From positions 1 to 58,667 of the forward strand of contig CAMBRK010000023.1 of the NCBI GenBank assembly GCA_945870185.1: a stretch of DNA of 58,667 bases, written 5' to 3'. Below the pieces are notes generated by a model that had not been told where the DNA came from, ran no database searches, and worked only from the letters and a program-made list of their open reading frames with translations. The position numbers were made by a program, and so were the translations under genes. Position 1 is the first letter of the stretch, and each line of letters begins with the position of its first letter. Source of the DNA: Aureispira sp. CCB-QB1 (GTDB lineage Bacteria > Bacteroidota > Bacteroidia > Chitinophagales > Saprospiraceae). Shown here piece after piece: positions 7,990 to 46,106 of this stretch.

Positions 7990-9645
7990 ATGTTGATAAA
8001 AATAGAAATACAGAATTACGCCATTATAGAAAAGCTGGAAATCGCCTTTCCGGAAGGACTTACTATAATCACGGGCGAAACGGGTGCCGGAAAATCTATC
8101 CTTTTGGGTGCCTTGGGTCTCATTATGGGCAATAGAGCGGATACCAAAGTATTGTTTGATGCGGACAAAAAATGTTTTGTAGAAGCGACTTTTGATATTT
8201 CACACTACGGTCTTAAAACCTATTTTGACGAAGAGGGCTTGGATTATCATCATGAAATGATCATCAGAAGGGAAATTGCTCCCGGTGGTAAAAGTAGAGC
8301 CTTTGTGAATGATAGTCCCGTGACCTTGGACGTGGTACAAACCATAACAGAGCAATTAATAGATATTCACCAGCAATTTGATACGCTCGATATCCAGAAG
8401 CCGGCCTTCCAATTACAAATGATCGATGCTTTGGCAGGCAACAAGACGCTTTTGGAAGACTACGCTGTAAAGTACAAGGCATATCGCCACACCTTTAAAA
8501 ATCTTGACCAGCTTCGCGAAAAGAATAGAAATGCTCATCAGGAAATCGAATTTTTGACCTTTCAAATGAGTGAATTTCAGGCAGTCCAGCTAAAAGCAGG
8601 AGAATACGATGATCTGGAAGCTACCTTACATAAATTGACCTCGGCAGAAGACATCAAAAAAAATCATACCTTGCTGGGTGTAGTGTTGGAAGATAGCGAA
8701 AATGCGTTGATTTCCCAATTGCAAAATCTGGTCAACCAATACGCTGCTGTCAAAAACCTGGACGCAATGTACGGCGATATTTATGATAGAATGATATCGG
8801 TAAAAGAAGAATTGTCAGACATCGCCCGATCAGCATCCCATATCGCAGATGATACAGAATATGATGAAGAAGCCATTCAAAATATCAACAACCGACTGAG
8901 TCAAATCAATAGATTGCTCAAAAAGCACAATGTACTGAATACTGAAGCTCTTTTGGAAATCGAAACAGATATCCAAACCAAGTTGGATGGCTTTGGTGAT
9001 TTGACCCAAGAAATAGAAAAGCTGGAATCCAGCCTGCAACTTCAAGAAACGGAGTTGAGAGCCATTGCAGATACGTTGTCTCAGGCCAGAAAGAAAGTCG
9101 TTGCGGGTTTTGAAGGTGATGTCCATGAGCTATTGGTCACCCTGTCTATGAATCATGCCCATATCAAAGTGGAAATCAAACCCTTATCTCAATTGTCTGC
9201 TACAGGATTGGATGATGTCAATATCCTTTTTTCACCCAATAAAGGCAGTGACTTTTTACCATTGAAAGATACAGCATCCGGTGGAGAGATGTCTAGGCTT
9301 ACTTTGTGTGTCAAATCTTTGGTGGCAGGAGCGATCACCTTGCCTACGCTGATATTTGATGAAATCGATGCGGGCGTTTCAGGTGATGTAGCGCAGCGTA
9401 TGGCCAAAATTCTGGAAAATCTTTCCAAAAAGCATCAGATCATCAGTATCACCCATTCACCACAGATAGCCGCCAAGGCTCAAAGCCATTATTGGGTCTA
9501 TAAGTCAGAAAATGATCACCGAACGATCACCGCTATGCGCCAACTTAGCCTAGAAGACAGAGTCACCGAAATCGCTAAGATGTTGAGTGGCAATCCGCCA
9601 ACACAAGCAGCCATAGCCAACGCCAAAGAGCTCATAGGTATTTAG
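7990..9645 (+). CDS. recN: DNA repair protein RecN
   Basis: A 551-aa SMC-like ATPase acting in recombinational repair of double-strand breaks. Walker A GETGAGKS is at about 29-36; a long coiled-coil arm spans about 150-370; the ABC signature SGGEMSRLTL and Walker B TLIFDEIDAGVSG follow, and the D-loop/switch region ISITHSPQIAAKA closes the head domain. Length matches the family. The MFS transporter gene starts 5 bp after the stop codon, so the two are probably co-transcribed although unrelated in role. Confidence 0.97.
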   Translation: MLIKIEIQNYAIIEKLEIAFPEGLTIITGETGAGKSILLGALGLIMGNRADTKVLFDADKKCFVEATFDISHYGLKTYFDEEGLDYHHEMIIRREIAPGGKSRAFVNDSPVTLDVVQTITEQLIDIHQQFDTLDIQKPAFQLQMIDALAGNKTLLEDYAVKYKAYRHTFKNLDQLREKNRNAHQEIEFLTFQMSEFQAVQLKAGEYDDLEATLHKLTSAEDIKKNHTLLGVVLEDSENALISQLQNLVNQYAAVKNLDAMYGDIYDRMISVKEELSDIARSASHIADDTEYDEEAIQNINNRLSQINRLLKKHNVLNTEALLEIETDIQTKLDGFGDLTQEIEKLESSLQLQETELRAIADTLSQARKKVVAGFEGDVHELLVTLSMNHAHIKVEIKPLSQLSATGLDDVNILFSPNKGSDFLPLKDTASGGEMSRLTLCVKSLVAGAITLPTLIFDEIDAGVSGDVAQRMAKILENLSKKHQIISITHSPQIAAKAQSHYWVYKSENDHRTITAMRQLSLEDRVTEIAKMLSGNPPTQAAIANAKELIGI

Positions 9646-9650
9646 TTTTC

Positions 9651-10886
9651 ATGATTAAAAAAGGAATCCATATTTATAAAGATGCTTTTTCTGGTCTGTC
9701 CAAAAGTGTCTGGCTGCTCAGTTTGATTATGTTTATCAATAGAGCTGGGGCTATGGTCTTGACTTTTATGTCTCTGTACATGATCAAAGACTTAGGGTAC
9801 AGCAAAGGAGAAGCAGGGTGGGTGATGGGTGCCTACGGCTTGGGAAGTATCTTAGGTGCGTATCTCGGAGGACAACTCACAGACCGATTTGGTTTTTATT
9901 ATGTCCAGTTATGTTCTTTATTGGGAAGTATCTTATTTCTGATCATGCTGATCTTTGTTAAGGATTACTATGGCATACTCTTGACCGTATTTTTATTTTC
10001 TACCATTACAGACATGCTGCGTCCAGCCAATAGTGTCGCTATTTCATTGTATTCCAAACCCGAAAACCTGACCAGGTCATTTTCCTTGATGCGATTTGCG
10101 GTCAATCTGGGTTTTTCCGTAGGGCCGGCTGTGGGCGGTTTTGTAGCAGAATATATAGGCTACAAATGGGTATTTGGCTTGGATGCAGTGACTTGTTTCT
10201 TAGCTGCGGGTGTTTTATTCTTATTTTTGCCGTACGACCCACAGTACAAACCTGAAAAGAAGGAATCCGATGCCCCCAAAGGGTTATCTGCCTACAAAGA
10301 TATTCCGTATCTCCAGTTTATCATCATGACCTCGATATGGGGGATATTGTTTTTTCAGTTGTTTTCTAGCACACCCGTATTTTGGAGTCAGGAATTTAGT
10401 TATACAGAAAGTACCATAGGTCAGCTGTTGGCCTTAAATGGATTGATCATCGTACTGATAGAAATGCCGATCATCCGCTATCTGGAGCATATCACGAGAT
10501 ATATGTACATGGTAACTATAGGCAGCGTGATGCTGGTATTAAGCTTTGGTCTTTTGGTGATCAGTACGGCACATGTATCTTTTGCCATAGGATACATTAT
10601 TTTTATGTCTTTGGCAGAGCTTTTTGCTATGCCTTTTATGACCAACTATGCTGTGTCGAGAGCATCAGAAGATCGCAGAGGTCAGTACATGGCTTTGTAT
10701 GCCATGGCGTATGGTGTAGCTCACATTGTAGCTCCACTAGGTAGTCTGCAGTTGGCAGACCTATGGGGATTTAATGTAACGTATTGGATATGTTTGGTGA
10801 TGAGTGTTGTGGTAGCCTTGGTGTTTTTTTATATGGGGAGGATGCAAGTGGCCAAAAGTAATAGGGCAACACCCTTACAGGAATGA
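9651..10886 (+). CDS. MFS transporter
   Basis: A 411-aa major facilitator with twelve predicted membrane segments in two halves separated by a charged loop (about 195-215, rich in K, E and P). The loop 2-3 motif GGQLTDRFGF fits the MFS motif A (GxxxDRxGR-like). The MRFAVNLGFSVGPAVGGF stretch resembles motif C of drug:proton antiporters. It belongs to the general YdeE/MdtH-like drug efflux type, but no substrate can be assigned. It directly follows recN. Confidence 0.85.
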   Translation: MIKKGIHIYKDAFSGLSKSVWLLSLIMFINRAGAMVLTFMSLYMIKDLGYSKGEAGWVMGAYGLGSILGAYLGGQLTDRFGFYYVQLCSLLGSILFLIMLIFVKDYYGILLTVFLFSTITDMLRPANSVAISLYSKPENLTRSFSLMRFAVNLGFSVGPAVGGFVAEYIGYKWVFGLDAVTCFLAAGVLFLFLPYDPQYKPEKKESDAPKGLSAYKDIPYLQFIIMTSIWGILFFQLFSSTPVFWSQEFSYTESTIGQLLALNGLIIVLIEMPIIRYLEHITRYMYMVTIGSVMLVLSFGLLVISTAHVSFAIGYIIFMSLAELFAMPFMTNYAVSRASEDRRGQYMALYAMAYGVAHIVAPLGSLQLADLWGFNVTYWICLVMSVVVALVFFYMGRMQVAKSNRATPLQE

Positions 10887-33716: not shown

Positions 33717-35024
33717 ATGAAGTGGTATCATAAGATTTCATCAGATGCAGTATCAGCATATCAGTATTTCCAAGTAGTACGATATTTGATGAGTGTATTG
33801 GTTTCAGTCATCATGGTGAAATCATCATTGCCGGCCCTAGATTTGGGTTATTATGAACTCATTATTTTTGGTGTAGTAACATTTTCAGGATTTTGGTCCA
33901 GTGGTATCAAAAATGCACTTTTTAATTTTTATGCTTCAAAGGATGGTGAAGATAAAGAACAAATATTTAAATACGCTTTTTGGTGCCTTACGTTTCTTTC
34001 TGTATTGGTCATTGTGGCGATCATTGTGTTTCCTCAATTACTGTATTTGATCAGTAGTAGTGCTATTTCGCCTTTTTTGCCTTTTCTCGTTGCCTTTTTG
34101 TTTTTTTCTGTGCCTATATCTTTGGTAGAAAGTGTGTTTTACCTTAAGGATGAGAAGGAAAAATTGATACAATATACCCATTGGAGTCAAGGTGGTCTTT
34201 TGTTACTGAATATATTGGTAGCCTTGTTTAGTCCTACATTACATGCTTTTGTACTTGTCCTGATATTTTGGTCTTTTATCAGGTGGCTATATTTATTACA
34301 TGTATTGGAATATAATACGCTTTTTAGTGCGTTTAAAGGGTCAATATCCTTTTTGCTACTTACTTTGCCATTGATTCTGAATATGATACTATCACAGGCT
34401 ATGGACTTTATTGACAGTTGGCTGGTTACTCAAAATTTTAGTACTGAATTCTTTCCAGTATTTAGGTACGGCGCGAGAGAAATGCCTTTTTCAGCCCTTT
34501 TGTTCAGTTCGTTGAGTGTGGCCATGATACCCTTAATTATGAAGGACCAACAAGCCGGTTTGGAAACATTGAGACAAAAAGCTACCCAACATCTTCATTT
34601 TTTGGCACCTTTATCACTGATATTGATGGTGTTGTCACCGGTTTTGTTTCCTGTGATTTATGACCACCAATACAAAGATTCAGCATTCATTTTTAATGTT
34701 TATCTATTGATCCTGACCAGCCGCGTTTTGTTGCCCCAATCCTACACCTTGGCTCATCATAAACACGGGATTATAATTGCTTCAAGCATCCTGGAAATTA
34801 TAGCCAATATAGCTTTAAGTTTATGGTGGTTGCGTGATTTTGGGGTGTATGGTTTAGCAATGGCTACGGTAGTAGCATATTTTATACAAAAGATGATTTT
34901 AATGACCTACAACTATCGCATTTATGGCATTAAAATGGGTCAGTATATAGATATCAAATACTACCTGATGTATAATTCAGCATTGGTCATTTGTTTTTGG
35001 CTTACCTTTAAATATATGAGATGA
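33717..35024 (+). CDS. Polysaccharide flippase (MVF/Wzx-like)
   Basis: A 435-aa membrane protein with about twelve hydrophobic segments of the MATE/MVF oligosaccharide flippase superfamily; segments such as LPLILNMILSQAMDFIDSWL and the YGAREMPFSALLFSSLSVAM block fit. It probably translocates a lipid-linked sugar precursor, though the sugar is not known. It overlaps prmC by 4 bp (ATGA), so both are translationally coupled. A TATATTTG -7 box is at 33705-33712, four bases before the ATG. Confidence 0.75.
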   Translation: MKWYHKISSDAVSAYQYFQVVRYLMSVLVSVIMVKSSLPALDLGYYELIIFGVVTFSGFWSSGIKNALFNFYASKDGEDKEQIFKYAFWCLTFLSVLVIVAIIVFPQLLYLISSSAISPFLPFLVAFLFFSVPISLVESVFYLKDEKEKLIQYTHWSQGGLLLLNILVALFSPTLHAFVLVLIFWSFIRWLYLLHVLEYNTLFSAFKGSISFLLLTLPLILNMILSQAMDFIDSWLVTQNFSTEFFPVFRYGAREMPFSALLFSSLSVAMIPLIMKDQQAGLETLRQKATQHLHFLAPLSLILMVLSPVLFPVIYDHQYKDSAFIFNVYLLILTSRVLLPQSYTLAHHKHGIIIASSILEIIANIALSLWWLRDFGVYGLAMATVVAYFIQKMILMTYNYRIYGIKMGQYIDIKYYLMYNSALVICFWLTFKYMR

Positions 35025-35854
35025 CAGCACAGGAAGCATACCAGTTTTTAGATCAAAGTATGTCTGATATTTATGATGCTCGGGAGGCTTCTACCATTGC
35101 TAGGTATTTGGTAGAAGACCTATTGCAGATGCAGTTTTGGTCAGAAGATGTGCTTAACCCAGAACAGCAAGTTTTGGTATCTAAAGCTGCACAACGATTG
35201 AAAAATCACGAACCTTGGCAATACATAGGCGGATTGGCAGACTTCTATGGGTTTAAATTTAAAGTGAATCCTTCTGTTTTGATTCCCAGGCCAGAAACTG
35301 AAGAGCTGGTTTATATGGCCTTGGATTTGATCAATAATGCGGGAGTGACTTCTGTATTGGACATTGGTACGGGTTCGGGTATCATTCCTGTTACTTTGGG
35401 CTTAAAGTCAAAAGTGACTACTATATATGGCTTGGATGTGAGTCGTGATGCTTTAAAAACTGCCGAAGAAAACGCCAAATGGCACAAAACTGATATTCCG
35501 TGGATTCATCAAGATTTCTTGGATGATCAGATTTGGCATACGCTACCACAAGTGGATTTAGTGATTTCTAATCCACCTTATATCACGACATCCGAAGCAG
35601 ATGTTATGCATCCCAACGTCCTACAACATGAACCACACTTGGCCCTTTTTGTAAATCAAGATGCTATGGAGTTTTATATAGCAATAGCCAAAATGGTCAT
35701 GGCCCACCAAAAGGATGGTTGCAAAGTGATCACAGAAATCAATGAAAATTTTGGTATTCAGGTATGTCAGGTATTTACAGAAGCTGGTTTAAAGCATGTT
35801 AAATTGTTTCAGGATTTACAAGGCAAAGATAGAATAGTGATCGGGGAGAAGTGA
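35021..35854 (+). CDS. prmC: Peptide chain release factor N5-glutamine methyltransferase
   Basis: A 277-aa SAM-dependent methyltransferase that modifies the GGQ glutamine of RF1/RF2. Motif I is VLDIGTGSGIIPVTLGL, and the catalytic NPPY motif appears as ISNPPYITTSEADVM. An N-terminal helical domain (about 1-85) ends in PWQYIGGLADFYG and precedes RPETEELV, as expected for PrmC. Fused by 4-bp overlap to the flippase gene. Confidence 0.95.
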   Translation: MTAQEAYQFLDQSMSDIYDAREASTIARYLVEDLLQMQFWSEDVLNPEQQVLVSKAAQRLKNHEPWQYIGGLADFYGFKFKVNPSVLIPRPETEELVYMALDLINNAGVTSVLDIGTGSGIIPVTLGLKSKVTTIYGLDVSRDALKTAEENAKWHKTDIPWIHQDFLDDQIWHTLPQVDLVISNPPYITTSEADVMHPNVLQHEPHLALFVNQDAMEFYIAIAKMVMAHQKDGCKVITEINENFGIQVCQVFTEAGLKHVKLFQDLQGKDRIVIGEK

Positions 35855-36322
35855 TGGGCTATGATGAATTTTATTACTAAGATTATCAATATTTTATATA
35901 ATTCAAAAAAAAAATGTAAAAAATTTTAAAAAAAATGTAAAAAAATTTGGTAGTTTTAAAAAAGAAATTTTAAATTTGTTTTTACTTTGATGGTGAAGTT
36001 AACAGTGAAGTGAGATTTTTCCACAAAGTAACTTAAAAAATTGTAACCGCCTTTTGTATAAGTTTGGCAGGGAATCAAGATGAGTTTTAGTCCAACAACG
36101 AACTGTTTTTGAAGCTCTAGAAATGTATAGTATACCTTTAGGTATGTGGTACTGAAGTAATAATTTTCGTGTGTGCAGCAAGTCTGCATGTACAACGAAG
36201 ATATATTTTTGATGTGAACAAAAGTGTCCATATCATACTTACTCTTATGAGTAAGAAACTATTTTTTAACAGGCGATTTATAAGTATAACAAAATTAGTT
36301 AACCATTTAAATAAATACAACA
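35855..36322. other. AT-rich gap without genes
   Basis: No gene is supported in this region. A long A-rich run with AAAAAATG-like steps lies at 35900-35960. A small palindrome ATACCTTTAGGTAT sits at about 36134-36147. Frames on the minus strand (35956-36323) overlap each other and have shadow-like composition. It leads into the repeated upstream block. Confidence 0.4.
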
Positions 36323-36461
36323 TATGACCTAAAACAAAAAAAAACCAAGGGAAACCTATCTCAGGAGATTGGACCCAAAGAAAACATTAGTAATTATCAA
36401 TTTCTAATAAGGAACTAGTAATTACATATTTTACCCACCCAAAACCGACAAAAATAAAAAA

Positions 36462-36502
36462 GAGCCTACTTTGGCCCATTTCGCGAAAAATGGAGTAAGC
36501 TC
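36462..36502. other. Large hairpin in cassette upstream block, copy 1
   Basis: GAGCCTACT (36462-36470) pairs with AGTAAGCTC (36494-36502) with one G-T pair, and inside it CCATTT pairs with AAATGG. An A-rich run precedes it, so on the minus strand it resembles an intrinsic terminator. The matching hairpin in the second copy is at 41019-41059. Confidence 0.75.
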
Positions 36503-36554
36503 CCGACCGATCTACTCGGAGAGACAAAGGTATGTTTTTTTTTAGAATTGTATT

Positions 36555-36716
36555 AGTGCTCTGTCCAGATAATAAATTAAAATTATAATGAGAGTTATTT
36601 TTTTGAAGATCAAGGCAAAAAACACAGACGTAGCCTTTGCTACTGCGAGTATTTTTAACGCAGATATTCGGAAAAAGAACCACATTTAATTAAGTTATTC
36701 ATCTTGATAGAGCACT
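36555..36716. mobile_element. Small inverted-repeat element (MITE-like), copy 1
   Basis: A 162-bp stretch begins AGTGCTCTGTCCAGAT and ends with a sequence whose reverse complement begins AGTGCTCTATCAAGATGA, so the termini are imperfect inverted repeats of roughly 25-30 bp. An internal GTAGC-CTTT-GCTAC hairpin is present. It has no open frame. No clear target-site duplication was found. A second copy (41114-41297) and an apparently empty site near 39781-39798 support the mobile reading. Confidence 0.6.
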
Positions 36717-36812
36717 GGAAAGGGATTAGTATTTTATCGTAGCCATAGACATTACTAATGGTTTGGCAAAAAAGTAATTAATTTTTTTATCACAATTTTA
36801 ATTTTAAAAACA

Positions 36813-38099
36813 ATGAAATATTTTAAATTTTCAAACAAGCTATTTGCTTTATTATTCATGATTACTAGTATGATGTTTGTAGGATGTCAAAAGGAGGAAC
36901 AGAAGAATGACTTAGGAAATAAGTCTAATCAAAGTTTAGAAACTAGAGTTAGTTTGGATAGACCTATTCCAAATGGAGATCTTTTACAATTTAGGGATTA
37001 TTCACATTTTAAAAGTTATTTAGAAGGTTTAAACAACCTGCTTTCAGCTGAAGGCACTGAATTTGAAGAACAGGTACTCAACACATCTGATTTTCAATCT
37101 GTTTATAAGAAACTTGTAAATGATGAATTCGTTGATCCACAAAATAGATATAAACCATTTTTGACAGACCCTGCAGTTATGGCAGTATTGAATGAATATT
37201 ACGAAGTTAGAATTGGAGATGTTTTGATAACATATATCAATAATAGTCAAGTTTTAAGATCTTCATTTAATAATACTACAACAAGGAATGCTATTCGTTC
37301 AATCCCCAAAGGAAATGAGCTAGCACTTTCAGATATACCAGTTGGAGCAGCATGGGGAGAGGACACAGAAGAACAGTCCTTCCTGGGACCTTGGTGTGGG
37401 TGTGAGATTAAAATCAGGAGATTAGATTGTAATACAATCAGAATTTTTGGAAATTGTCAGGACTTTGTTTTTGGTGCTGGGGATGGAACTGTTGAAATTT
37501 TTATAAATAACAGTCAGTTTTTTCCGCCAATAGGTGCAATACCTTCAAGTACATTTAGAGTAAACGGGAATTTTACATTTGATATACCTATGTCAAATCT
37601 TTCAAATTTATTTTTACATGTTTCGGCAAGGCCTGATTGTATACGTAAAAATTTAGTAACAGCAAGTCTTCAAGGGAATGCTGGACCTCAATGTGATCCG
37701 GATGACAAAGATACTGGTTGGTTGTGGGCACAAAACGCAACTGGAACTGAAGGAATAAGCCATAGAACATCAACTTATAAAAATAGGGTATCTGCATATC
37801 AAAGAGCAGAAATATTCTCTAGAAGATGGAATGGCTCTAAATGGGTGCCAAATAACAGTAACTTAAGAGCCAATATCTTTGCAAGAAGAAAAGGATCAGC
37901 ATGTACGATTATAGATACTGAATCAGAAACTAGGTCTTGTAATAGCTGTAATAATAGAACAGCAAGTGTCAATGTTGGGTTATTTGGTAAAGATCAAATT
38001 CATCACTGTGATGGTGATGTAGTAGGTACTTTTAGAAAAACCATTGGTAACATAACCATAAATGCGATAGGAAGTCCCAACTTCGAATGTTGTGAATAA
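36813..38099 (+). CDS. Cassette lipoprotein A (unknown function)
   Basis: A 428-aa lipoprotein: signal peptide with lipobox cysteine C25 in MMFVGCQKEEQKN. The N-terminal third (about 50-165) resembles the same region of the paralogue at 41395 in layout: a DYSHFKSYLEGL helix, then a short-repeat region and IGDVLITYINNSQV. The C-terminal part is unlike the paralogue and cysteine-rich (GPWCGCEIKIRRLDC, NCQDF, CNSCNNR, HHCDGD, final ECC), suggesting disulfide-rich beta structure. It is followed by a terminator-like hairpin and a T9SS protein gene. Function unknown; surface location is likely. Confidence 0.75.
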   Translation: MKYFKFSNKLFALLFMITSMMFVGCQKEEQKNDLGNKSNQSLETRVSLDRPIPNGDLLQFRDYSHFKSYLEGLNNLLSAEGTEFEEQVLNTSDFQSVYKKLVNDEFVDPQNRYKPFLTDPAVMAVLNEYYEVRIGDVLITYINNSQVLRSSFNNTTTRNAIRSIPKGNELALSDIPVGAAWGEDTEEQSFLGPWCGCEIKIRRLDCNTIRIFGNCQDFVFGAGDGTVEIFINNSQFFPPIGAIPSSTFRVNGNFTFDIPMSNLSNLFLHVSARPDCIRKNLVTASLQGNAGPQCDPDDKDTGWLWAQNATGTEGISHRTSTYKNRVSAYQRAEIFSRRWNGSKWVPNNSNLRANIFARRKGSACTIIDTESETRSCNSCNNRTASVNVGLFGKDQIHHCDGDVVGTFRKTIGNITINAIGSPNFECCE

Positions 38100-38117
38100 C
38101 TTTATTATTAATGTAAT

Positions 38118-38149
38118 ATCAGAGAAGCAACCTATGTTGCTTTTCTGAT
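38118..38149 (+). terminator. Strong hairpin between cassette lipoprotein A and the T9SS protein
   Basis: A 14-bp stem (ATCAGAGAAGCAAC / GTTGCTTTTCTGAT, one G-T pair) with a 4-base loop lies 18 bp after the stop codon. Only a short T-containing tail follows, so it may attenuate rather than end transcription into the next gene. Confidence 0.7.
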
Positions 38150-38168
38150 TGTTTAAAATGTTTTTAAA

Positions 38169-39137
38169 ATGAGATTTATTTTTTTAGCGGTTTTTATCAT
38201 CTTAGCATTTCTAAGTGCTAAAGCTCAAGATTATAAAGTATCCGTTTTCCCTGACCCGTATATAGAGCTAGATACTTTTGATTCTGTAATTTTAGAGACT
38301 GGAGATCACCTTGGTTGGAATAAACGGTTTGAGCTCGACTTTATTTTTCCTTATTATGATACATCATTTAATTACATTAATGGAAACTATGAATCCATAT
38401 ATTCATTTGAAGATGAAATAGACTATTCGATAATCTTGATGGCATTTGGATACGAATTTGATAAACTTACTGATATTAATAAAGTCACATCTGATCTAAG
38501 GTATGCATTAAAGGTAAAGGATGGCAAAAAGGCACTTTGTTTACAATACACTAAAAATAGACTTACTTCAGATCCTTCAGTAAAACAATTTGATAGCTAT
38601 ATTAATTTTCAAATTTGGTTTTTGGAAAATGGAAATATTGAATTGAAATTTGGAGATTATATTTTAGATAATTCACCCGTTTATGTACCCAATGAAGGGT
38701 TTTATTTGCAAACTGTGAATGTAGGCCCGCTGTTGTTAGGCCCAACATTTGGGCTTAATCACCCTTTTAGTGAAAATATAAAATTTGGTATTGATGGTCC
38801 TTATGATTCTTTACAAACAATAAATGACTCGGGATACCTTACTAAATTACCACCACCAGATTGGACCATAAAATTTGAAAAACAAACCACTGGAACGCAC
38901 GAAATCCAAAATACAAATAATATATTTTTCCCCAATCCTGCAAGTCATAGCATTAGTTTTTCTGATCCAGTCTGGGAATATATCATATCTAACATGGAAG
39001 GCAAGGTAGTGATGACTCAGAGTCAATTAAATGCAGATATTAGTGAAGTGGACGTTTCGACTTTGACATCGGGCATGTATATTTTAAAAACGAGATTAAA
39101 TAATATTTTACACATAAATAAATTTATAAAATTATGA
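38169..39137 (+). CDS. Secreted protein with T9SS type A sorting domain
   Basis: A 322-aa protein with a cleavable signal peptide (about 1-19, ending AKAQ) and a C-terminal T9SS sorting domain (about 245-322): FFPNPASHSISFSD, then ISNMEGKVVMTQSQ and VDVSTLTSGMYILKT, with a conserved final KFIKL. The middle is beta-rich without a recognised domain. It is thus exported over the outer membrane and probably anchored or released at the surface. It overlaps the next gene by 4 bp. Confidence 0.88.
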   Translation: MRFIFLAVFIILAFLSAKAQDYKVSVFPDPYIELDTFDSVILETGDHLGWNKRFELDFIFPYYDTSFNYINGNYESIYSFEDEIDYSIILMAFGYEFDKLTDINKVTSDLRYALKVKDGKKALCLQYTKNRLTSDPSVKQFDSYINFQIWFLENGNIELKFGDYILDNSPVYVPNEGFYLQTVNVGPLLLGPTFGLNHPFSENIKFGIDGPYDSLQTINDSGYLTKLPPPDWTIKFEKQTTGTHEIQNTNNIFFPNPASHSISFSDPVWEYIISNMEGKVVMTQSQLNADISEVDVSTLTSGMYILKTRLNNILHINKFIKL

Positions 39138-39586
39138 GAACTGTATCATTAGTATTGTTTTGTTTTATCTATTCACAAATTCTTTTCTCACAATCGTTCA
39201 TTGGGACTAATACAACTTTTTTAGGTGCTTATGGTTTGCAGCAAGAACTAAGTGTTGGATCTCAGTTTTATAAAAAGCTACATCTTGATATTAGAGTTGG
39301 TTCAAATTTCAAAAGTTACAGTACCTATAAATTTGGATTAAGGTACGATTTGATAACACTTACCAAAGCAAAATTTCAGGTTGGAGTAGACTTAGGACAT
39401 CTAAAGTACAAACAATTTGGCTTACAAACCTACGAGCAATTTAGAACTTTTGAATTATTAGCAGGAGCAAGTTATAATTTTTACAGGCGTATAGAAGGAG
39501 TTACAGAAATAGGAGTGATGAATGGACAGTTTTCAACCGAATCAACTTCCTTACTTATGAGGTTGGGGTTGAGATATAAATTGTAG
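39134..39586 (+). CDS. Small outer-membrane beta-barrel-like protein
   Basis: A 150-aa protein with a signal peptide (about 1-20). The rest alternates hydrophobic and polar residues over about eight short strands, such as LHLDIRVGSNFKSYSTYKFG and LTKAKFQVGVDLGHL, ending in SLLMRLGLRYKL with a terminal aromatic/hydrophobic pattern typical of barrels. Translationally coupled (ATGA) to the T9SS protein gene. A PorP/OmpA-like fold is possible, but no family is recognised. Confidence 0.6.
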   Translation: MRTVSLVLFCFIYSQILFSQSFIGTNTTFLGAYGLQQELSVGSQFYKKLHLDIRVGSNFKSYSTYKFGLRYDLITLTKAKFQVGVDLGHLKYKQFGLQTYEQFRTFELLAGASYNFYRRIEGVTEIGVMNGQFSTESTSLLMRLGLRYKL

Positions 39587-39617
39587 TATCAAATAAATCA
39601 GTACTAATTAGAAATTG

Positions 39618-39723
39618 TCGGCAGCTTACAAACTAGAATGTATAGCATGATTTAGTCAGACGGCAAGATGATGCGAATTCATAAGTTTTATAAAAAAATG
39701 ATTTTTGGGGAGTATTTGTTGTT
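39618..39723 (+). pseudogene. Relic of a T9SS C-terminal sorting domain, copy 1
   Basis: The DNA GCAGCTTACAAACTAGAATG onward aligns base by base with the relic at 43439-43543 and, at the protein level, with the end of a sorting domain (L-Q-x-x-M-Y ... S-D-x-K-M-M-R-x-H-K-F-Y). In-frame stops (TAG after MIA region) and indels show it is dead. It sits 30 bp after the barrel gene and marks the end of unit A. Confidence 0.7.
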
Positions 39724-39766
39724 ACAAAAAAATGTCTTCAGCCTAGATAATGCTACGTACAAGTGG

Positions 39767-39887
39767 ATGTTTTCTTTTTTAAGATTGTACGAAAAAAGGA
39801 TTAGTATTTTAGCGTAGCCATAGTCATTACTAATGGTTTGGCAAAGAAGTAATTAATTTTTTTATCACAATATTAATTTTAAAAACA
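39767..39887 (+). repeat. Upstream block of the leader cassette, partial copy 3 (empty site)
   Basis: The sequence ATGTTTTCTTTTTTAA...TTGTA, then GAAAAAAGGATTAGTATTTT and the following 95 bp match the flanks of the inverted-repeat element in copies 1 and 2, without the element itself. It joins directly to the truncated leader gene. Confidence 0.75.
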
Positions 39888-40052
39888 ATGAAATATTTTA
39901 AATATTCAATCAGGCTATTTGCTTTATTATTAATGATTACCAATATGATGTATGTAGGATGTCAAAAGGATGAACAGAAGAATCTTAAATCTGATGATCA
40001 GTTGTGTACAGATGGGTTAGGAATCTACTCATATAAATTTATAAAACAATAA
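39888..40052 (+). CDS. Truncated lipoprotein leader (54 codons)
   Basis: This short frame starts MKYFKYSIRLFALLLMITN and has lipobox cysteine C25 in MMYVGCQKDEQKN, nearly identical to the leaders at 36813 and 41395. After residue 33 it diverges into a short tail ending IYSYKFIKQ and stops, so the body of the lipoprotein is missing. It may be a pseudogene or a real small lipoprotein. The barrel gene follows after 43 bp. Confidence 0.6.
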   Translation: MKYFKYSIRLFALLLMITNMMYVGCQKDEQKNLKSDDQLCTDGLGIYSYKFIKQ

Positions 40053-40095
40053 CTATTTTTTATCAAAATATTCATTAATCACTAATCAATTCAGT

Positions 40096-40848
40096 ATGTT
40101 TTTATCTAAGCCATTAACAACCTTTTCATGTTTTTTTATACTTCTATTGGTACCAATATTGGTAAAAAGCCAAAAGGGATTTCAGATAGGAGTAGGATTT
40201 CACAGTATGCCCTTCAATGCTAGTGAATATAGAATAGAGGTTTATAATGAATCCATTTATTCTAAGACACCCTTTGGACTTTCTTTAAATACAGATTATA
40301 CCTTTAACGATAAGTTTAGGATCAAATCTGGACTAGAATACAAATTTCAAAATATTTCGTTTAATAATATTACTGATTTTAGGGCAGAATTCTTTAGTAT
40401 TCCTGTCATTTTAAATTACAATTTTCCCAAAATAAATAAATATGGCTTGACATTAGGCTTAGACTTAGGTATCTCATTAGATAAAATCTCAAACTACTTG
40501 CAAACCCTCGATTACGAAATTATTAATGGTGACACAGAAACCAAGCTTGACATTGTAATGCAAACCAATAGTGTTGCTCCACTAAAGGCAGTTGAGTTTA
40601 ATAACATTAGTGGTCGTGCGGGTATAAATGTAAAAAAAGACATGGGAAGTCGTGGTCATCTAAATTTTTATATTCATGGCATTTTCCCAGTTGGCAAACC
40701 AGACGAATTACGACTGAATTTTGATAGACAATTTTCTATTCCACCAAATCTTTCCGTCAGAGTTATTTATGAAGAAACACTTAACATTACACCTAAGGGA
40801 TTACAATTTGGAATGTATTATACTTTCGGTACTTTGACTTTTAAGTAA
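40096..40848 (+). CDS. Outer-membrane beta-barrel protein, unit B
   Basis: A 250-aa protein with signal peptide (about 1-25, ending VKSQKG) and a beta-barrel-like body: GFQIGVGFHSMPF, TPFGLSLNTDYTFNDKFRIK, SGLEYKFQNISF, FFSIPVILNYNFP, KYGLTLGLDLGISL and the C-terminal GLQFGMYYTFGTLTFK. This matches the 'porin family / PorT-like outer membrane beta-barrel' proteins of Bacteroidota. It takes the place occupied by barrels in units A and C but is not obviously closely related to either. Confidence 0.75.
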   Translation: MFLSKPLTTFSCFFILLLVPILVKSQKGFQIGVGFHSMPFNASEYRIEVYNESIYSKTPFGLSLNTDYTFNDKFRIKSGLEYKFQNISFNNITDFRAEFFSIPVILNYNFPKINKYGLTLGLDLGISLDKISNYLQTLDYEIINGDTETKLDIVMQTNSVAPLKAVEFNNISGRAGINVKKDMGSRGHLNFYIHGIFPVGKPDELRLNFDRQFSIPPNLSVRVIYEETLNITPKGLQFGMYYTFGTLTFK

Positions 40849-40882
40849 TTCGAAAGGTTTTAACCAATAAATGACAACAATA

Positions 40883-41394
40883 TATGACCTAAAAACAAAA
40901 ACCAAGGGAAACCTATCTCAGGAGATTGGACCCAAAGAAAACATTAGTAATTATCAATTTCTAATAAGGAACTAGTAATTACATATTTTACCTTCCCAAA
41001 ACTGACAAAAATAAAAAAGAGCCTACTTTGGCCCATTTCGCGAAAAATGGAGTAAGCTCCTGACCGATCTAATCGGAGACACAAAGGTATGTTTTCTTTT
41101 TTAAAATTGTATTAGTGCACTGTCCAGATAATAAATTAAAATTATAATGAGAGTTATTTTTTTGAAGATCAAAGCGTAAAATTTTAATGCCGCTATTGCG
41201 GTACACAGATGTAGCCTAAGCTACAGCGAGTATTTTTAACGCAGATATTCGGAAAAAGAACCACATTTAATTAAGTTATTCATCTTGATAGAGCACTGAA
41301 AAGGGATTAGTATTTTAGCGTAGCCATAGACATTGCTAATGGTTTGGCAAAAAAGTAATTAATTTTTTTATCACTATTTTAAATTTTAAAAACA
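40883..41394 (+). repeat. Upstream block of the leader cassette, copy 2
   Basis: It matches 36323-36812 almost throughout, with only scattered substitutions and a 22-bp longer inner element. It includes the large hairpin (41019-41059), CCGATCTAATCGG (about 41063-41075) and the inverted-repeat element (41114-41297). Confidence 0.9.
41114..41297. mobile_element. Small inverted-repeat element (MITE-like), copy 2
   Basis: This 184-bp copy has the same ends as the first (AGTGCACTGTCCAGAT ... GATAGAGCACT), with an additional 22 bp around AATGCCGCTATTGCGG. The inner hairpin reads GTAGC-CTAA-GCTAC: stem conserved, loop changed relative to copy 1. Confidence 0.6.
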
Positions 41395-42621
41395 ATGAAA
41401 TATTTTAAATTTTCAAACATGCTATTTGCTTTATTATTCATGATTACCAGTATGATGTACATAGGATGTCAAAAGGAGGAACAGAAGAATCTTAAGTCTG
41501 ATAAAAACCTAGAAAAACGTGATAAGTCATTTACTCCTTCTATGTCCATAGCAAAAGAATCAGATTATCTTGTTTTTAATTCATTTTCTGATTTAGATCA
41601 ATTTCTTGCCGAAGCAAACACTTCGTCCCATACATCACTCAATTCTTGGGAAAATCAGAAAGGTATTACAACGCAGAGACAGGTGTTTTACAATGTTATG
41701 AATGCAGAAACAAATTTAGATTTGTCTCTTGAAAACCTTCCAGAGCAAGCTCAGCTTGTAGAGAAAGCCAAGGAACCTTATCATTCTACTGAACATAATC
41801 AAGCCTTAAATGCAGGATTGATAAGATATTATGGTCAAGCACCTAATTCTTATTGGGACTATTCGTTAGTAGAACCAATGGTTGCAAGTGCCGTTAACTT
41901 AAACGGATTGGTAAAAGTAGGTGGGCAATTGATTAAGTACTCGAATTTCAACTTCATCTACATTATTAAAGATGGCGACATTGCAAAACTGCCATTAGCA
42001 ATTTCAAAAACAGATGAGTTTGAAAATGGTGAAATCAAAGTTATCAAGACCAATCCATACAACCCAGAAGGAACAGTAGAGAATCACGAAACAGAAATCA
42101 GAAGTTTATGCTACTCTCTACCGCATGAAAATACATTTTCAAAAACAAATAGTTGGGAGCAAAATGGTCAAAAAACATTCAGAGTAAAAGTTGAAATAGA
42201 TGGACGTGCAAAAGCAAATTTTGGTTCAACATCATGTGTCTATGGCACAGGTTGTACGTTTCAAGTAAGGACACAAGCCCAGCGAAAAAACTTTTGGGGA
42301 AATTGGGTTTATTCGTCTAGTTTTGGTCCGTCATTAACAATTAGCAATGCTACATGGTCTTATGATATGTCATTAATGCCCACTTGTTCAGACTATCCTA
42401 CTGTTTATAACAATAATATTACAGGTGGCTCATACCCTAAGCCTATTTGGAGTACTTTTATACCTTGGACTAATAATGGATTTTTCCCTATGCATCCTAG
42501 CACTAGTGGTTGGTGGGTATGGAATGATAAGAAAATATGTACCACCATTAATATGCAGAATTATAATATACCTGCTACATATAATGGAAATGGACCTAGT
42601 AGATGGAATCTTGTAAAATAG
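41395..42621 (+). CDS. Cassette lipoprotein B (unknown function)
   Basis: A 408-aa lipoprotein with the same leader as the gene at 36813 (lipobox C25, MMYIGCQKEEQKN). Its N-terminal domain (about 55-205) has the shape FNSFSDLDQFLAEA, W-containing linker and GGQLIKYSNFNFIYIIKDGD, a layout shared with lipoprotein A and with other Bacteroidota lipoproteins. The C-terminal half (about 230-408) is different: tryptophan- and aromatic-rich with a few cysteines (SLCYS, SCVYGTGC, PTCSDYP). Function unknown. A perfect hairpin follows. Confidence 0.75.
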   Translation: MKYFKFSNMLFALLFMITSMMYIGCQKEEQKNLKSDKNLEKRDKSFTPSMSIAKESDYLVFNSFSDLDQFLAEANTSSHTSLNSWENQKGITTQRQVFYNVMNAETNLDLSLENLPEQAQLVEKAKEPYHSTEHNQALNAGLIRYYGQAPNSYWDYSLVEPMVASAVNLNGLVKVGGQLIKYSNFNFIYIIKDGDIAKLPLAISKTDEFENGEIKVIKTNPYNPEGTVENHETEIRSLCYSLPHENTFSKTNSWEQNGQKTFRVKVEIDGRAKANFGSTSCVYGTGCTFQVRTQAQRKNFWGNWVYSSSFGPSLTISNATWSYDMSLMPTCSDYPTVYNNNITGGSYPKPIWSTFIPWTNNGFFPMHPSTSGWWVWNDKKICTTINMQNYNIPATYNGNGPSRWNLVK

Positions 42622-42656
42622 TAAATTGCAAGACTCGTAGTTTATTTAACAACTTA

Positions 42657-42682
42657 CCTGAGTACCTTGCGTGGTACTCAGG
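42657..42682 (+). terminator. Perfect hairpin after cassette lipoprotein B
   Basis: CCTGAGTACC (42657-42666) pairs completely with GGTACTCAGG (42673-42682) around a 6-base loop. The following sequence is AT-rich but has no strong T run, so it may weaken rather than stop expression of the downstream barrel gene, which starts 20 bp later. Confidence 0.75.
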
Positions 42683-42702
42683 TTAATATAAATCTTATAA
42701 AA

Positions 42703-43386
42703 ATGAATGTAATTAAAATATCTCTATCATTTTTAATATATTTTTGTTTAATATCAAAATGCTATTTGCAAAATATTGACTATGGATTGGTTATTGAAGC
42801 AAATTTGGCAAGCCATACCAATAGTGATCCTACGAAACCTGATGATGGCCAGTTTCAATGGAATTCACTAAAGACATTTGGCGTGGGAGCTTATGCATCA
42901 AAGCAAGTTTACAATCATATTCATTTAACTTCATCATTGATGTTCAGACAGCGGGGTTATACGGAAGAAGCCCAAACAGGTCCTATACCATCCCCTACAT
43001 TTAGTTATTTAAGTTTGCAAAATAGTTTTAACTATGTTGCATTTGATGTTAAGTGCAAGTATATTAGAAATAATTCTAATAAAGTAAAAATATCTCCCTT
43101 TCTTGGTTTTAGTACAAATGCTCTTTTATCTAAGGATATCGAATCTGAACGACAAGATGACATTAATGATCTTTATCCGGTAAATCAATACCAAGACAAT
43201 TGGAAAAGAATAAATGTAAATTATGCCATTGGTTTTTCTTTTTTCCAGCTTAATAAATACAGTTTGGATTTTGAGTTTAATAGGAGCATTACTCCACTTC
43301 TAAAAGTGGAAACGCTATTAGTGAAAGATTGGGTATGGTCCATGAAATTAAATATCTCTGTCCAAAAATTGTTAAGTTCTGAGTGA
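42703..43386 (+). CDS. Outer-membrane beta-barrel protein, unit C
   Basis: A 227-aa protein with a signal peptide (about 1-22). Barrel-like strands such as YGLVIEANLASHTNSD, GVGAYASKQVYNHIHLTSSL, YVAFDVKCKYIRNN and INVNYAIGFSFFQLNKYSLD alternate as in PorT-type proteins. The ATG at 42703 is chosen because the frame's upstream TTG (42667) lies inside the hairpin loop. It is not obviously a close copy of the barrels in units A and B. Confidence 0.7.
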   Translation: MNVIKISLSFLIYFCLISKCYLQNIDYGLVIEANLASHTNSDPTKPDDGQFQWNSLKTFGVGAYASKQVYNHIHLTSSLMFRQRGYTEEAQTGPIPSPTFSYLSLQNSFNYVAFDVKCKYIRNNSNKVKISPFLGFSTNALLSKDIESERQDDINDLYPVNQYQDNWKRINVNYAIGFSFFQLNKYSLDFEFNRSITPLLKVETLLVKDWVWSMKLNISVQKLLSSE

Positions 43387-43430
43387 TATATGGTTGGAAT
43401 TATTTTTGTGCATTCTATAGATTGTGACAC

Positions 43431-43543
43431 GAAGTAGACATCAGTGGCTTACAAAATGGAATGTATATTGTGACTTGGTCAGACGACAAGATGATGCGAA
43501 GTCATAAGTTCTATAAATATTGATTTTTGGAGTGTGTTTGTTG
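43431..43543 (+). pseudogene. Relic of a T9SS C-terminal sorting domain, copy 2
   Basis: The frame reads EVDISGLQNGMYIVTW then SDDKMMRSHKFYKY and stops at 43523: a textbook end of a T9SS type A domain, but without any signal peptide or protein body, and with a stop codon just upstream. The flanking DNA continues to match copy 1 for another 20 bp past the stop. It marks the end of unit C. Confidence 0.75.
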
Positions 43544-43653
43544 CTTTTTTATTTTGGATCCATAGATAAATCATACTTTAGTAACTCATGTTACATTGAT
43601 TGAATACCAAAAACGATTACCTTTGTATTTTATTTACATCTAAATCAATACAT

Positions 43654-44079
43654 ATGAGATCCATTATTCTTTTAATTACTTTTTTTACCATCATCGGATG
43701 CAAGGAAAACAAAGCTGCTACTGCAAACGGTTCACCTGAACGTGAAAACACTGCTATCGTTAGCGAAGATCAAACCGTCAATACCAATATAGATGTCAAC
43801 GCTTGTAAGGCAAAAATGAAGGCCAACAAGGAAGTTGTTTTAATTGATGTCAGAACGGATGGAGAAGTTAATCAAGGAAAAATAGCCAACGCGCTGCATA
43901 TAGATATTAGCAAACCGGATTTTGATCAGAAGCTCAATGCTTTGGACAAAAACAAAGAGTACATCGTATATTGTGCAGTAGGTGGCCGATCGTCCAGAGC
44001 AGTCTCACAGATGCAGCAAAAAGGATTTAAAAAAGTTTTTAACATGGCCGGTGGGTATACTGCTTGGGCAAAGAACTAA
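43654..44079 (+). CDS. Rhodanese-domain lipoprotein
   Basis: A 141-aa protein with a lipoprotein signal (C16 in FTIIGCKEN) and a single rhodanese domain (about 45-140): VVLIDVRTDGEVNQGKIANALHIDI, active loop YCAVGGRSSRA with the catalytic cysteine, and KVFNMAGGYTAWAK at the end. Such proteins transfer sulfane sulfur in the periplasm. The frame's upstream 18 codons are not a signal peptide, so the ATG at 43654 is preferred. Confidence 0.9.
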   Translation: MRSIILLITFFTIIGCKENKAATANGSPERENTAIVSEDQTVNTNIDVNACKAKMKANKEVVLIDVRTDGEVNQGKIANALHIDISKPDFDQKLNALDKNKEYIVYCAVGGRSSRAVSQMQQKGFKKVFNMAGGYTAWAKN

Positions 44080-44127
44080 ACTGTTTTTAAATTTTAATGT
44101 TGCTTCCAAAATCTTAAGAGAAATCCA

Positions 44128-45150
44128 ATGAGTGATATTTTACAAACATTTTTGAATGGGTATAGTGGCTATGCTTCCTATGTATGGTATGAGATTACAC
44201 ATCCAGGATTCAAAAATTATTTTTATTGGTTATTGATAGTTTCAGCTTTCTTTTTTGGTTTGGAGATGATCAAACCGTGGCGAGAAAACCAACCTTTGTT
44301 TAGAAAGGACTTTTGGTTGGACTTTTTCTACATGTTTTTCAATTTTTTTATCTTTTCATTGATCATATATAATGCGGCATCTGATGTCATTGTATTGTTG
44401 TTCAATAATGGTATAGAATCTCTTACTGGTATAGACTTGCAATCTTTCAATCCTTTGAAGTCGTTTCCAATGTGGGCTATTCTGTTGATAGGCTTCGTCG
44501 TCAGGGATTTTGTTCAATGGTGGGTTCATAGATTATTGCATCGTGTAGAATGGCTGTGGCAATATCACAAAATTCATCATTCTGTAGAAGAAATGGGATT
44601 TGCAGCTCATCTGAGATATCATTGGATGGAAACTATCGTATATCGTACCTTGGAGTACATACCATTGGCATTATTAGGTATCGGATTATATGATTTTTTC
44701 ATCATCCATATATTTGCATTGGCAGTAGGACACTATAATCATAGCAATTTTGTAGTTAGTGGCAAAGTGACTGGTGGCATTTTGGGTGTACTCATAGGAA
44801 GTGTGGTAGTTTTTGGATTAGCTGACATTAATCTGCTCAATGATGCCGCTATTTCTTCCAAAATCATGGTGATGATCGGTTTGGTTATATTCGGTATTTT
44901 CGGTTTGGGTCCGATAATGAAATATCTTTTCAATAGTCCTGAAATGCACATTTGGCACCATGCCTATGATTTACCTGATGACAAAAAATATGGTATCAAT
45001 TTTGGACTTACTTTGGCCATTTGGGATTACCTATTTGGTACTGCTGCGATTCCACACGATGGCAAAGATATTAAATTAGGTTTTCCAGGAGTAAATATGA
45101 TTCCCCAAGACTTTATTGGCCAGTTTTTCTATGGCATCAAGAAGAGTTAA
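44128..45150 (+). CDS. Sterol desaturase / fatty acid hydroxylase family protein
   Basis: A 340-aa integral membrane protein with about six hydrophobic segments and three histidine boxes expected for a di-iron site: HRLLHR, WQYHKIHHS and WHHAYD (plus HYNHSNF between). Bacterial members hydroxylate or desaturate lipids such as carotenoids, plasmalogen-like ethers or sterols; the substrate here is unknown. Monocistronic. Confidence 0.87.
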   Translation: MSDILQTFLNGYSGYASYVWYEITHPGFKNYFYWLLIVSAFFFGLEMIKPWRENQPLFRKDFWLDFFYMFFNFFIFSLIIYNAASDVIVLLFNNGIESLTGIDLQSFNPLKSFPMWAILLIGFVVRDFVQWWVHRLLHRVEWLWQYHKIHHSVEEMGFAAHLRYHWMETIVYRTLEYIPLALLGIGLYDFFIIHIFALAVGHYNHSNFVVSGKVTGGILGVLIGSVVVFGLADINLLNDAAISSKIMVMIGLVIFGIFGLGPIMKYLFNSPEMHIWHHAYDLPDDKKYGINFGLTLAIWDYLFGTAAIPHDGKDIKLGFPGVNMIPQDFIGQFFYGIKKS

Positions 45151-45515
45151 TTTGTTGAATTGCTGAAATTGCTGAATCGCTGATTTGTTAATTTGTTGGA
45201 TTGCTGAATTGTGGAAATGCTGATCACGCCATGTCGTGACTTCGCTTCGCTTGTTTGCGGAAATGTTGAAATGTTGATTTTAAAATGATTTCGACTCCTT
45301 CGCCGCGGCGAATGCGCTCAATCAACGAGATCGACCTTAACTAAAATCCTTAATCTCAATCTTAACCTTAACCTTAACCTTAGCCTTAACCTTAACCTTA
45401 ATCTCAGTCTTAACCATAAAGTGATTTCGGCTCCACTATGTTGCGCTCAATCAACGAGCTCAACCTTAAACTAAAATCCTTAATCTCAATCTCAACCTTA
45501 GCCTTAACCTTATCC
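45151..45515. repeat. Repeat-rich gap with telomere-like TTAAGG tract
   Basis: The first 70 bp are irregular copies of a 9-bp TTGCTGAAT-like unit. The palindromes CACGCCATGTCGTG (45225-45238) and TTCGCCGCGGCGAA (45299-45312) repeat those at 17-30 and 66-79. From 45360 to 45515 CCTTAACC-type hexamers (TTAAGG on the minus strand) run in several blocks broken by TTAATCTCA and one copy of the palindrome linker. No gene is seen. Confidence 0.8.
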
Positions 45516-46106
45516 TTAATCTTCAAAAAGATCGTCCAATTTTCCTGTTTTCTTAAGTTTAATAAAGCTGCGTGTAGCTGCGATTACATCAGCCCGTGCG
45601 TTTCCAGCTGGGCCATAAGTTTGACCAAAACAAGTTCCATGGAGTTCTGGTAAAGTGGGATATTTATACCCTCCACCTTTTGATGGAATTTTACAATAAT
45701 AAGTACCTTCTTCCATCAGACAATGTCTTTTTTTAGAGAAAAAATTGATACTCTTTTTAGTTCTGACATATTCAGCACCCAAAATATTCTCATTATAGTT
45801 GAGATTATGTGCAAAGATGAATTCTGCTTTTGCAGCACTGGCACTAAATTTATCCAATACTTCTTCGAGCGGTGCCATTTTTTTCTTAATATCTTCATCA
45901 TCAATATGCGCTTTAGTCTTTGATTTGTCGTCAATCAATAGACCTGGAATCTGTGGTATACAATCAAAGTCTTCTATGGGTTTATAATCTTCACCCAATA
46001 AAATCCAACTAATATGAATAAGTCTGGGCCAAGCTTGAGTTTCTGTAAAATTGGCTTTGTAATTAGTAGGGCCTGCTATGGCAGAGCAATCGAATACAAG
46101 GTACAT
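45516..46106 (-). CDS. DEDDh exonuclease-like protein missing catalytic residues
   Basis: A 196-aa protein with the outline of a DnaQ/polymerase III epsilon exonuclease: YLVFDCSAIAG at the start, FIFAHNLNYNENILGAEYVR in the middle and PTLPELHGTCFGQTYGP, then NARADVIAATRSF near the end. In active relatives these read FDTETTG, HNxxFD and HxxxxD; here the second acidic residue is S8, the Exo II aspartate is N105 and the general-base histidine is G168. D6 and D173 are kept. A catalytically inactive role is likely. It is 11 bp downstream of the deaminase-like gene. Confidence 0.75.
   Translation of the reverse strand: MYLVFDCSAIAGPTNYKANFTETQAWPRLIHISWILLGEDYKPIEDFDCIPQIPGLLIDDKSKTKAHIDDEDIKKKMAPLEEVLDKFSASAAKAEFIFAHNLNYNENILGAEYVRTKKSINFFSKKRHCLMEEGTYYCKIPSKGGGYKYPTLPELHGTCFGQTYGPAGNARADVIAATRSFIKLKKTGKLDDLFED

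Follow-up and report, generated by a model that had tools for sequence, protein, structure and literature searches.

A candidate portable leader cassette with a predicted divergent small RNA in front of secreted-protein operons in Aureispira

A leader sequence that recurs in a 58,667-nucleotide contig of Aureispira sp. CCB-QB1 (GenBank assembly GCA_945870185.1, contig CAMBRK010000023.1) is, at a probability we put at about 0.6 from sequence comparison, a portable expression and secretion cassette that carries its own divergent, probably antisense, small RNA (sRNA) and stands on operons that are not of the SusC type. The whole contig is referred to below as the window; it is contig C23 of a 4.9 Mb genome in 168 contigs, and bare Cn labels denote contigs of this genome, while Gnnn:Cn denotes a contig of a relative. 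The cassette would belong to one genus of Saprospiraceae and would provide the 5' leader and signal-peptide start of an operon for secreted proteins or lipoproteins. On the opposite strand, 66-130 nt before the start codon when an inserted element resembling a miniature inverted-repeat transposable element (MITE) is set aside, it holds a putative sRNA gene of ~70 nt that has a -7 box and an intrinsic terminator of its own. The cassette appears to have spread by duplication and recombination, the coding sequence behind it being replaced or lost. The sRNA would most likely be cis-antisense to the operon 5' leader and lower operon expression, and its variable 5' hairpin loop would give each copy a partner of its own.

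Self-comparison of the window found the direct repeats where the initial annotation had placed them, and the starts it gave for the common 33-residue lipoprotein leader, at 36813 (copy A), 39888 (copy B) and 41395 (copy C), are correct. The 99-nt leaders are 89-92% identical (A/B 88/99, A/C 91/99, B/C 91/99), and upstream of the ATG copies A and C agree at 96.2% of 474 aligned bases. When compared with its own genome, the 601-bp block at 36308-36908 matched copy C from end to end (91%), copy B across its last 190 positions only (93%), and, in part, four other contigs (C76, C33, C151 and C118). The block is genuine in its three copies but is a composite: A and C consist of a gene-strand hairpin (H1), a ~70-nt opposite-strand unit, a ~163-bp MITE-like insertion, and a 5' region with the lipoprotein signal. 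An upstream block had been ascribed to all three copies; B (39794-40052, plus strand) holds only its final ~94 nt and has no H1, sRNA unit or MITE-like insertion. Nor is B the bare leader it was taken for: its 54-aa open reading frame (ORF; 39888-40052) ends in ...DGLGIYSYKFIKQ, which resembles the tail of a type IX secretion system (T9SS) protein; over 12-13 residues it agrees at 83-85% with the ends of three T9SS proteins from G007:C80. This match marks B as the remnant of an internal deletion in which the leader became fused to the final ~13 residues of a T9SS sorting domain. The annotated peak of identity over non-coding DNA stands for A and C, but ~163 bp of that stretch is a dispersed palindromic element outside the cassette, which inflated the impression of non-coding conservation. 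The mature parts of A and C do diverge as described, with 45% identity over the first 102 residues and no BLASTP match thereafter. The initial annotation had missed the sRNA on the opposite strand and the MITE-like insertion, and had not recognized what copy B is.

The predicted sRNA of copy A lies at 36450-36520 on the minus strand, with a 5' hairpin, then a terminator hairpin GAGCUUACU...AGUAGGCUC and a U tract; its putative -7 promoter box, TACCTTTG (36525-36532, minus strand), fits the consensus TAnnTTTG. The predicted sRNA of copy C is at 41007-41077 on the minus strand, with its -7 box at 41082-41089. The stretch 36450-36537 is found at six places in its own genome, itself included, each at E below 1e-16. 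A covariance model (R3), built on nine close copies and then widened to eleven, matched copy A at 36450-36537 on the minus strand (4.0e-19) and copy C at 41007-41094 on the minus strand (2.1e-18); the model search of the own genome found no sRNA in copy B. Altogether 18 copies were accepted, by eye on each copy and not by E-value: six in the own genome, 11 in five of nine same-genus genomes (five in G003, three in G007, and one each in G004, G006 and G009), and one in another genus of the family (G197:C150). All share one minus-strand plan, with a -7 box, a short 5' hairpin of varying sequence, a terminator hairpin with a base of the type GRGNCUGC/GYAGGCUC or GAGCUUACU/AGUAGGCUC, and a U tract. 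TAnnTTTG is exact in 14 copies and one letter off in four, and five of the nine deviations from TACCTTTG among the 18 copies fall at its two free positions, in keeping with the Bacteroidota -7 consensus given in PMC7366714 and PMC9723704. The box position reported in PMC9723704, -12 to -5, leads us to predict an RNA start 5 nt past the box, at the foot of the 5' hairpin, and hence a length of ~70 nt.

On which strand these hairpins act decides between an sRNA and the first of its rivals, namely that they form a riboswitch-like or attenuator 5' leader of the lipoprotein mRNA on the plus strand, with no separate RNA. The plus-strand leader was at first considered possible, on account of a promoter on the plus strand of copy A and a three-way-junction fold, and it can also appeal to the constant orientation of the unit relative to the gene that it precedes, seen in 17 of 18 copies, and to the wobble pairs that H1 keeps on the plus strand. 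It was overturned by the strand count. Read by hand across the 18 copies, the outer terminator stem is paired in 161 of 162 cells on the minus strand and in 128 of 162 on the plus strand; in 34 cells an A x C on plus becomes a G.U on minus, and in one it is the reverse. The U tract follows the stem directly on the minus strand only, and variation in the conserved 3' box conforms to TAnnTTTG. RNAalifold on MAFFT alignments found four pairs on the plus strand, though the minus strand was also weak (five pairs); both results are near-empty because MAFFT misaligned the divergent copies, and a covariance-model alignment was used for that reason. In this alignment (A9, 18 copies) 97.4% of 230 cells are paired and seven of 15 pairs have changed on both sides. 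None of 500 shuffles reaches its pairing, double-change or covariation values and one reaches its further pair types, and overall four of the five measures of covariation go beyond every one of the 500 shuffles; with the partner slid, pairing falls to 21-59%. A model alignment favours its own structure, and the A.C/G.U asymmetry is independent of that. We regard the plus-strand leader as unlikely and the divergent sRNA, whose transcription is predicted from the box and terminator, as probably real. It matches nothing in Rfam 15 in the window (E up to 5, with two weak matches elsewhere in the window), nor in eight further loci (E up to 1, with one sub-threshold match off the sRNA in L099).

The copies are dispersed, and they keep their place. 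The unit stands a short way upstream of a signal-peptide-like ORF (signal peptide or lipobox, by eye) in 17 of 18 copies; this count includes G003:C7, where the signal start and the long ORF are in different frames across T-rich tracts (L057 / L064), for which assembly error, decay and phase variation are candidate causes. The distance from -7 box to ATG is 80-127 nt in 11 MITE-free loci and, by a rough pattern, ~66-130 nt in four more; in A and C it is 288 and 313 nt, owing to the MITE-like insertion. Among the 12 copies outside the own genome, seven had already been found with the first model or by pattern. The genus search (E up to 0.5) returned 24 rows, of which 17 were accepted (six own, 11 others) and seven rejected as ordinary terminators, coding sequence or matches without a -7 box (G008:C209, G004:C65, G007:C22, G005:C478, G002:C117, G008:C62 and G008:C303). 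The family search, over 199 genomes with stricter filters, gave six genomes with a match, the own genome included; G197:C150 and G009:C18 (the latter already counted in the genus set) were accepted, and matches in G031, G082 and G188 were rejected on reading. In separate searches, matches in G042 and three viral contigs were judged chance. Own-genome matches in C12, C88 and C142 (E 0.2-0.5) were also rejected. A strict pattern scan of genome contigs gave three matches, all in one Saprospiraceae metagenome-assembled genome, which is no gauge of distribution, as near-window records may be excluded.

What stands behind the leader changes from copy to copy. Like leaders precede secreted proteins or lipoproteins at C33, C76, C151 and C118, which bears out the annotated idea of a reusable promoter and secretion cassette with changing cargo, and BLASTP (E up to 1e-3) matched none of the proteins at these four places to a protein of A or C. 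The cargo at C118 is an HExxH-type secreted protein (by eye), that at G003:C8 a trypsin-like protein with a T9SS tail (Pfam, 2.6e-23), and others are Cys-rich lipoproteins (by eye) or lipoproteins without Pfam families. These data bear on a second rival, simple tandem duplication and drift of a secreted-protein operon, with leaders kept alike by promoter and signal-peptide constraint. The tandem arrangement of A, B and C speaks for it, as does the distant N-terminal region shared by the first genes of A and C. It would also be favoured if the same cargo always followed the block, as the initial annotation had pointed out, and this holds in part: related cargo stands behind the block in A, G007:C80 and G004:C55, with T9SS partners in the latter two that are 22-29% identical to that of A and 43-46% to each other, and the leader-like first genes of C76, C151 and G007:C113 are partly alike (35-46% over 41-62 aa). 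But C33, C76, C151 and C118 lie elsewhere in the genome before unmatched proteins, and the leaders of G003:C7, C8 and C10 are 95-97% identical over ~348 nt with different genes behind them. These three match from about -420, with three-way identity of 72-80% per 25 nt at first and 80-100% from -316, and drop to background within ~30 nt past the ATG. C33 even carries a remnant of replaced cargo: the first gene of G003:C25 survives there as a C-terminal piece (81% over 42 aa), the two downstream genes of these loci are 73-76% alike, and C33 has other genes in front. We therefore hold tandem duplication with drift to be an improbable account of the cassette. There is no sign of present-day switching between copies, inverted repeats shorter than 25 nt not having been looked for; the four inverted pairs of at least 25 nt in 34000-46000 (26-39 nt, 71-81% complementary, 1.3-5.7 kb apart) include none that closely flanks a promoter.

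Two cargo loci had peculiarities of their own. In C76 (L009), 8061-10025 holds a 66-aa ORF with a lipoprotein signal and then a 569-aa ORF in another frame, either a break or two genes. G007:C80 (L066, 5195 bp) comprises a whole cassette unit, a lipoprotein with three T9SS-type proteins, and the two ends of this contig share an overlap of exactly 24 nt immediately after the leader, as a collapsed tandem array or a circular molecule would.

The MITE-like insertion lies at 36554-36716 in copy A, between the sRNA promoter and the gene, with ends TAGTGCTCTGTC / GA(C/T)AGAGCACT, and at 41113-41297 in copy C. The ~163-bp palindromic element with TAGTGCTCTGTC ends has many copies in same-genus genomes, some matching themselves on both strands, and its core palindrome matches DNA of other genera and of a second family within the order. 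The stretch 36554-36716 has the features of a MITE: inverted repeats at its ends, dispersed copies, and sites that lack it at B and C33 (ends and sites read by eye); a TA target duplication is likely. Members of the family also occur at loci L013-L016, L029 and L030. That the hairpin unit is itself a mobile repeat, of repetitive extragenic palindromic or MITE-like kind, landed by chance near these genes is very improbable: it is dispersed, forms hairpins and adjoins the MITE-like element in A and C, but its position and orientation before secreted-protein starts are constant (17 of 18), similarity runs through its flanks into the gene start, it holds a promoter box and a terminator, and the part that looks mobile is a separate element with its own terminal repeats.

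An antisense role would require the operon transcript to cross the sRNA, and H1 is the feature that speaks to this. It lies in the presumed operon 5' leader (36345-36380, plus strand, in copy A), and its stems, picked by hand, covary (AAGG/CCTT, GGG/CCC, CAGAT/ATCTG, AAAGG/CCTTT). MAFFT aligned H1 poorly, with one row truncated, and cells were therefore counted by hand in nine sequences (A and its near-twin C as one row; G003:C7/C8/C10 and the five most divergent loci left out): on the plus strand 85 are Watson-Crick, three G.U, none A.C and two other. The wobbles, three on plus against none on minus, suggest that the operon transcript spans the sRNA region. A possible operon promoter, TTTG-N21-TAnnTTTG, stands at 35946-35978 (plus strand) in copy A, 867 nt before the ATG, and is suggestive only.

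As for specificity, among eight regions compared in the six own copies the 5' hairpin loop varies most, with a mean pairwise difference of 0.47, partly inflated by a one-base alignment shift, against 0.05 for the terminator. In the three G003 leaders the sRNA changes more than the rest (12/79 versus 17/266 columns, p 0.02). Loop variability and the faster change in these recent copies fit a private specificity for each sRNA.

Several observations weigh against the cassette with an antisense sRNA. The terminator stems were hand-chosen, and related copies share many of the 34 A x C cells by descent; the plus strand folds as a three-way junction of similar energy in several copies; and a -33 motif of the sRNA promoter is not evident by eye. 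The accepted copy G007:C139 (E 0.21) scores below four rejected matches, and G003:C14, with an intact terminator stem, has no signal-peptide ORF behind the sRNA within ~0.8 kb (L101). The sRNAs of A and C are not faster-evolving (3/88 substitutions). The full plus-strand promoter is present upstream of the sRNA in only three of 13 loci (A, C33 and G007:C113; summed chance expectation ~0.62), and the plus-strand -7 box alone is no commoner there than in shuffles. Given such sparse promoters, the operon could start between sRNA and gene, in which case the RNA would be a divergent neighbour and not an antisense RNA. The sequence itself shows the repeat and its dispersal, the structure and the strand it belongs to, the place in front of secreted proteins and the change of cargo; from it we infer transcription of the sRNA, its overlap with the operon 5' leader, repression and loop-based specificity, and we give cis-antisense repression an even chance.

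Other conserved features were seen upstream of these genes. A further short hairpin ~60-80 nt before the ATG in C76, C151, C118, L043 and L044 (by eye) has arms that change and still match (GTATC/GATAC, GTGTC/GACAC and GATATC types) and is possibly part of the operon 5' leader. Several hundred bases farther upstream than the sRNA, C33 and C76 also have in common a conserved stretch of ~330 nt that is non-coding (73%).

The nearest known systems are DonS and the RNAs associated with polysaccharide utilization loci (PULs) of Bacteroides, described in PMC7366714 and PMC10994844 as antisense and divergent to susC homologues or operons. Like them, the predicted RNA is short and divergent at the start of a surface-protein operon, has a putative Bacteroidota -7 promoter and occurs at many loci per genome. 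DonS-type RNAs measure 78-128 nt, have their own promoter and terminator and reduce operon expression; the RNA here has a predicted length of ~70 nt, with a putative -7 box, a terminator stem and a U tract. Unlike them, it belongs to a leader reused before different genes, and these encode lipoproteins, T9SS-exported proteins and small barrels: Pfam finds no SusC or SusD in 16 cargo-region proteins (six in the window, ten elsewhere). Because the scanned cargo is not SusC/D, we do not file the sRNA as a DonS member; by analogy, it would at most work like DonS. Antisense RNAs of the plasmid copy-control type combine constant stems with variable loops. The cassette sRNA shares the constant scaffold and a 5' hairpin loop that varies between copies, but it is attached to secreted-protein genes and not to a replication gene, and its pairing and loop specificity are presumptive. 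Bacteroides varies its surface by invertible promoters; here, too, several surface proteins share a promoter region, but no inverted pair closely flanks a promoter, pairs under 25 nt not having been looked for. Judged by titles among the matches listed, no paper deals with such an RNA in Saprospiraceae.

The units in the window are built as follows. Copy A starts a lipoprotein of 428 aa with the common leader and no Pfam family (36813-38099), a secreted protein with a T9SS sorting domain (38169-39137; Por_Secre_tail, 4.8e-9) and a possible small outer-membrane barrel (39134-39586; Phenol_MetA_deg, 0.018, below cut-off and weak). A barrel-like protein follows copy B (40096-40848; OMP_b-brl, 9.4e-6, below cut-off). 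The lipoprotein of copy C (408 aa, 41395-42621), which in its own genome matches only A (first ~100 residues) and B (leader), is followed by a barrel protein (42667-43386; OMP_b-brl_2, 2.4e-8). A barrel-like gene had been proposed after each copy; 42667 alone passes the Pfam cut-off. The T9SS sorting-domain relics said to end units A and C are indeed there, at 39624-39694 and 43447-43517, 86% alike. All features in this paragraph are on the plus strand.

MurJ-PrmC is found upstream in the window and also in eight of the nine relatives from the genus, the exception being G008 (65% complete), where PrmC had no good match. In the ~1.5 kb behind PrmC of the relatives nothing matched a window cargo protein, and no accepted sRNA lies beside PrmC there, so the cassette array is accessory in the genus. 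In G006:C79 (L074) the relatives of window genes 45516 and 46118 come immediately after PrmC, and the whole stretch 35.9-45.5 kb thus has an empty site there. Two AACCTT-type short-repeat stretches occupy 45313-45523, between the gene ending at 45150 and the gene at 45516.

The cassette gives a clear example of the way in which a bacterium may bring new surface proteins under control that already exists. In gut Bacteroides, PULs are known to have divergent antisense RNAs; the cassette sRNA, as a structurally conserved family that travels with a reusable secretion leader in Saprospiraceae, would extend RNA control to surface proteins outside PULs. A genus-wide addressing system, in which each cassette has an antisense RNA of its own, alike in scaffold but distinct in loop, and new cargo captured behind the leader comes at once under individual control, is a speculative and rather unlikely extension; if true, surface proteins could be expressed selectively or one at a time. 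The 18-copy alignment supplies a model with which any transcriptome can be searched.

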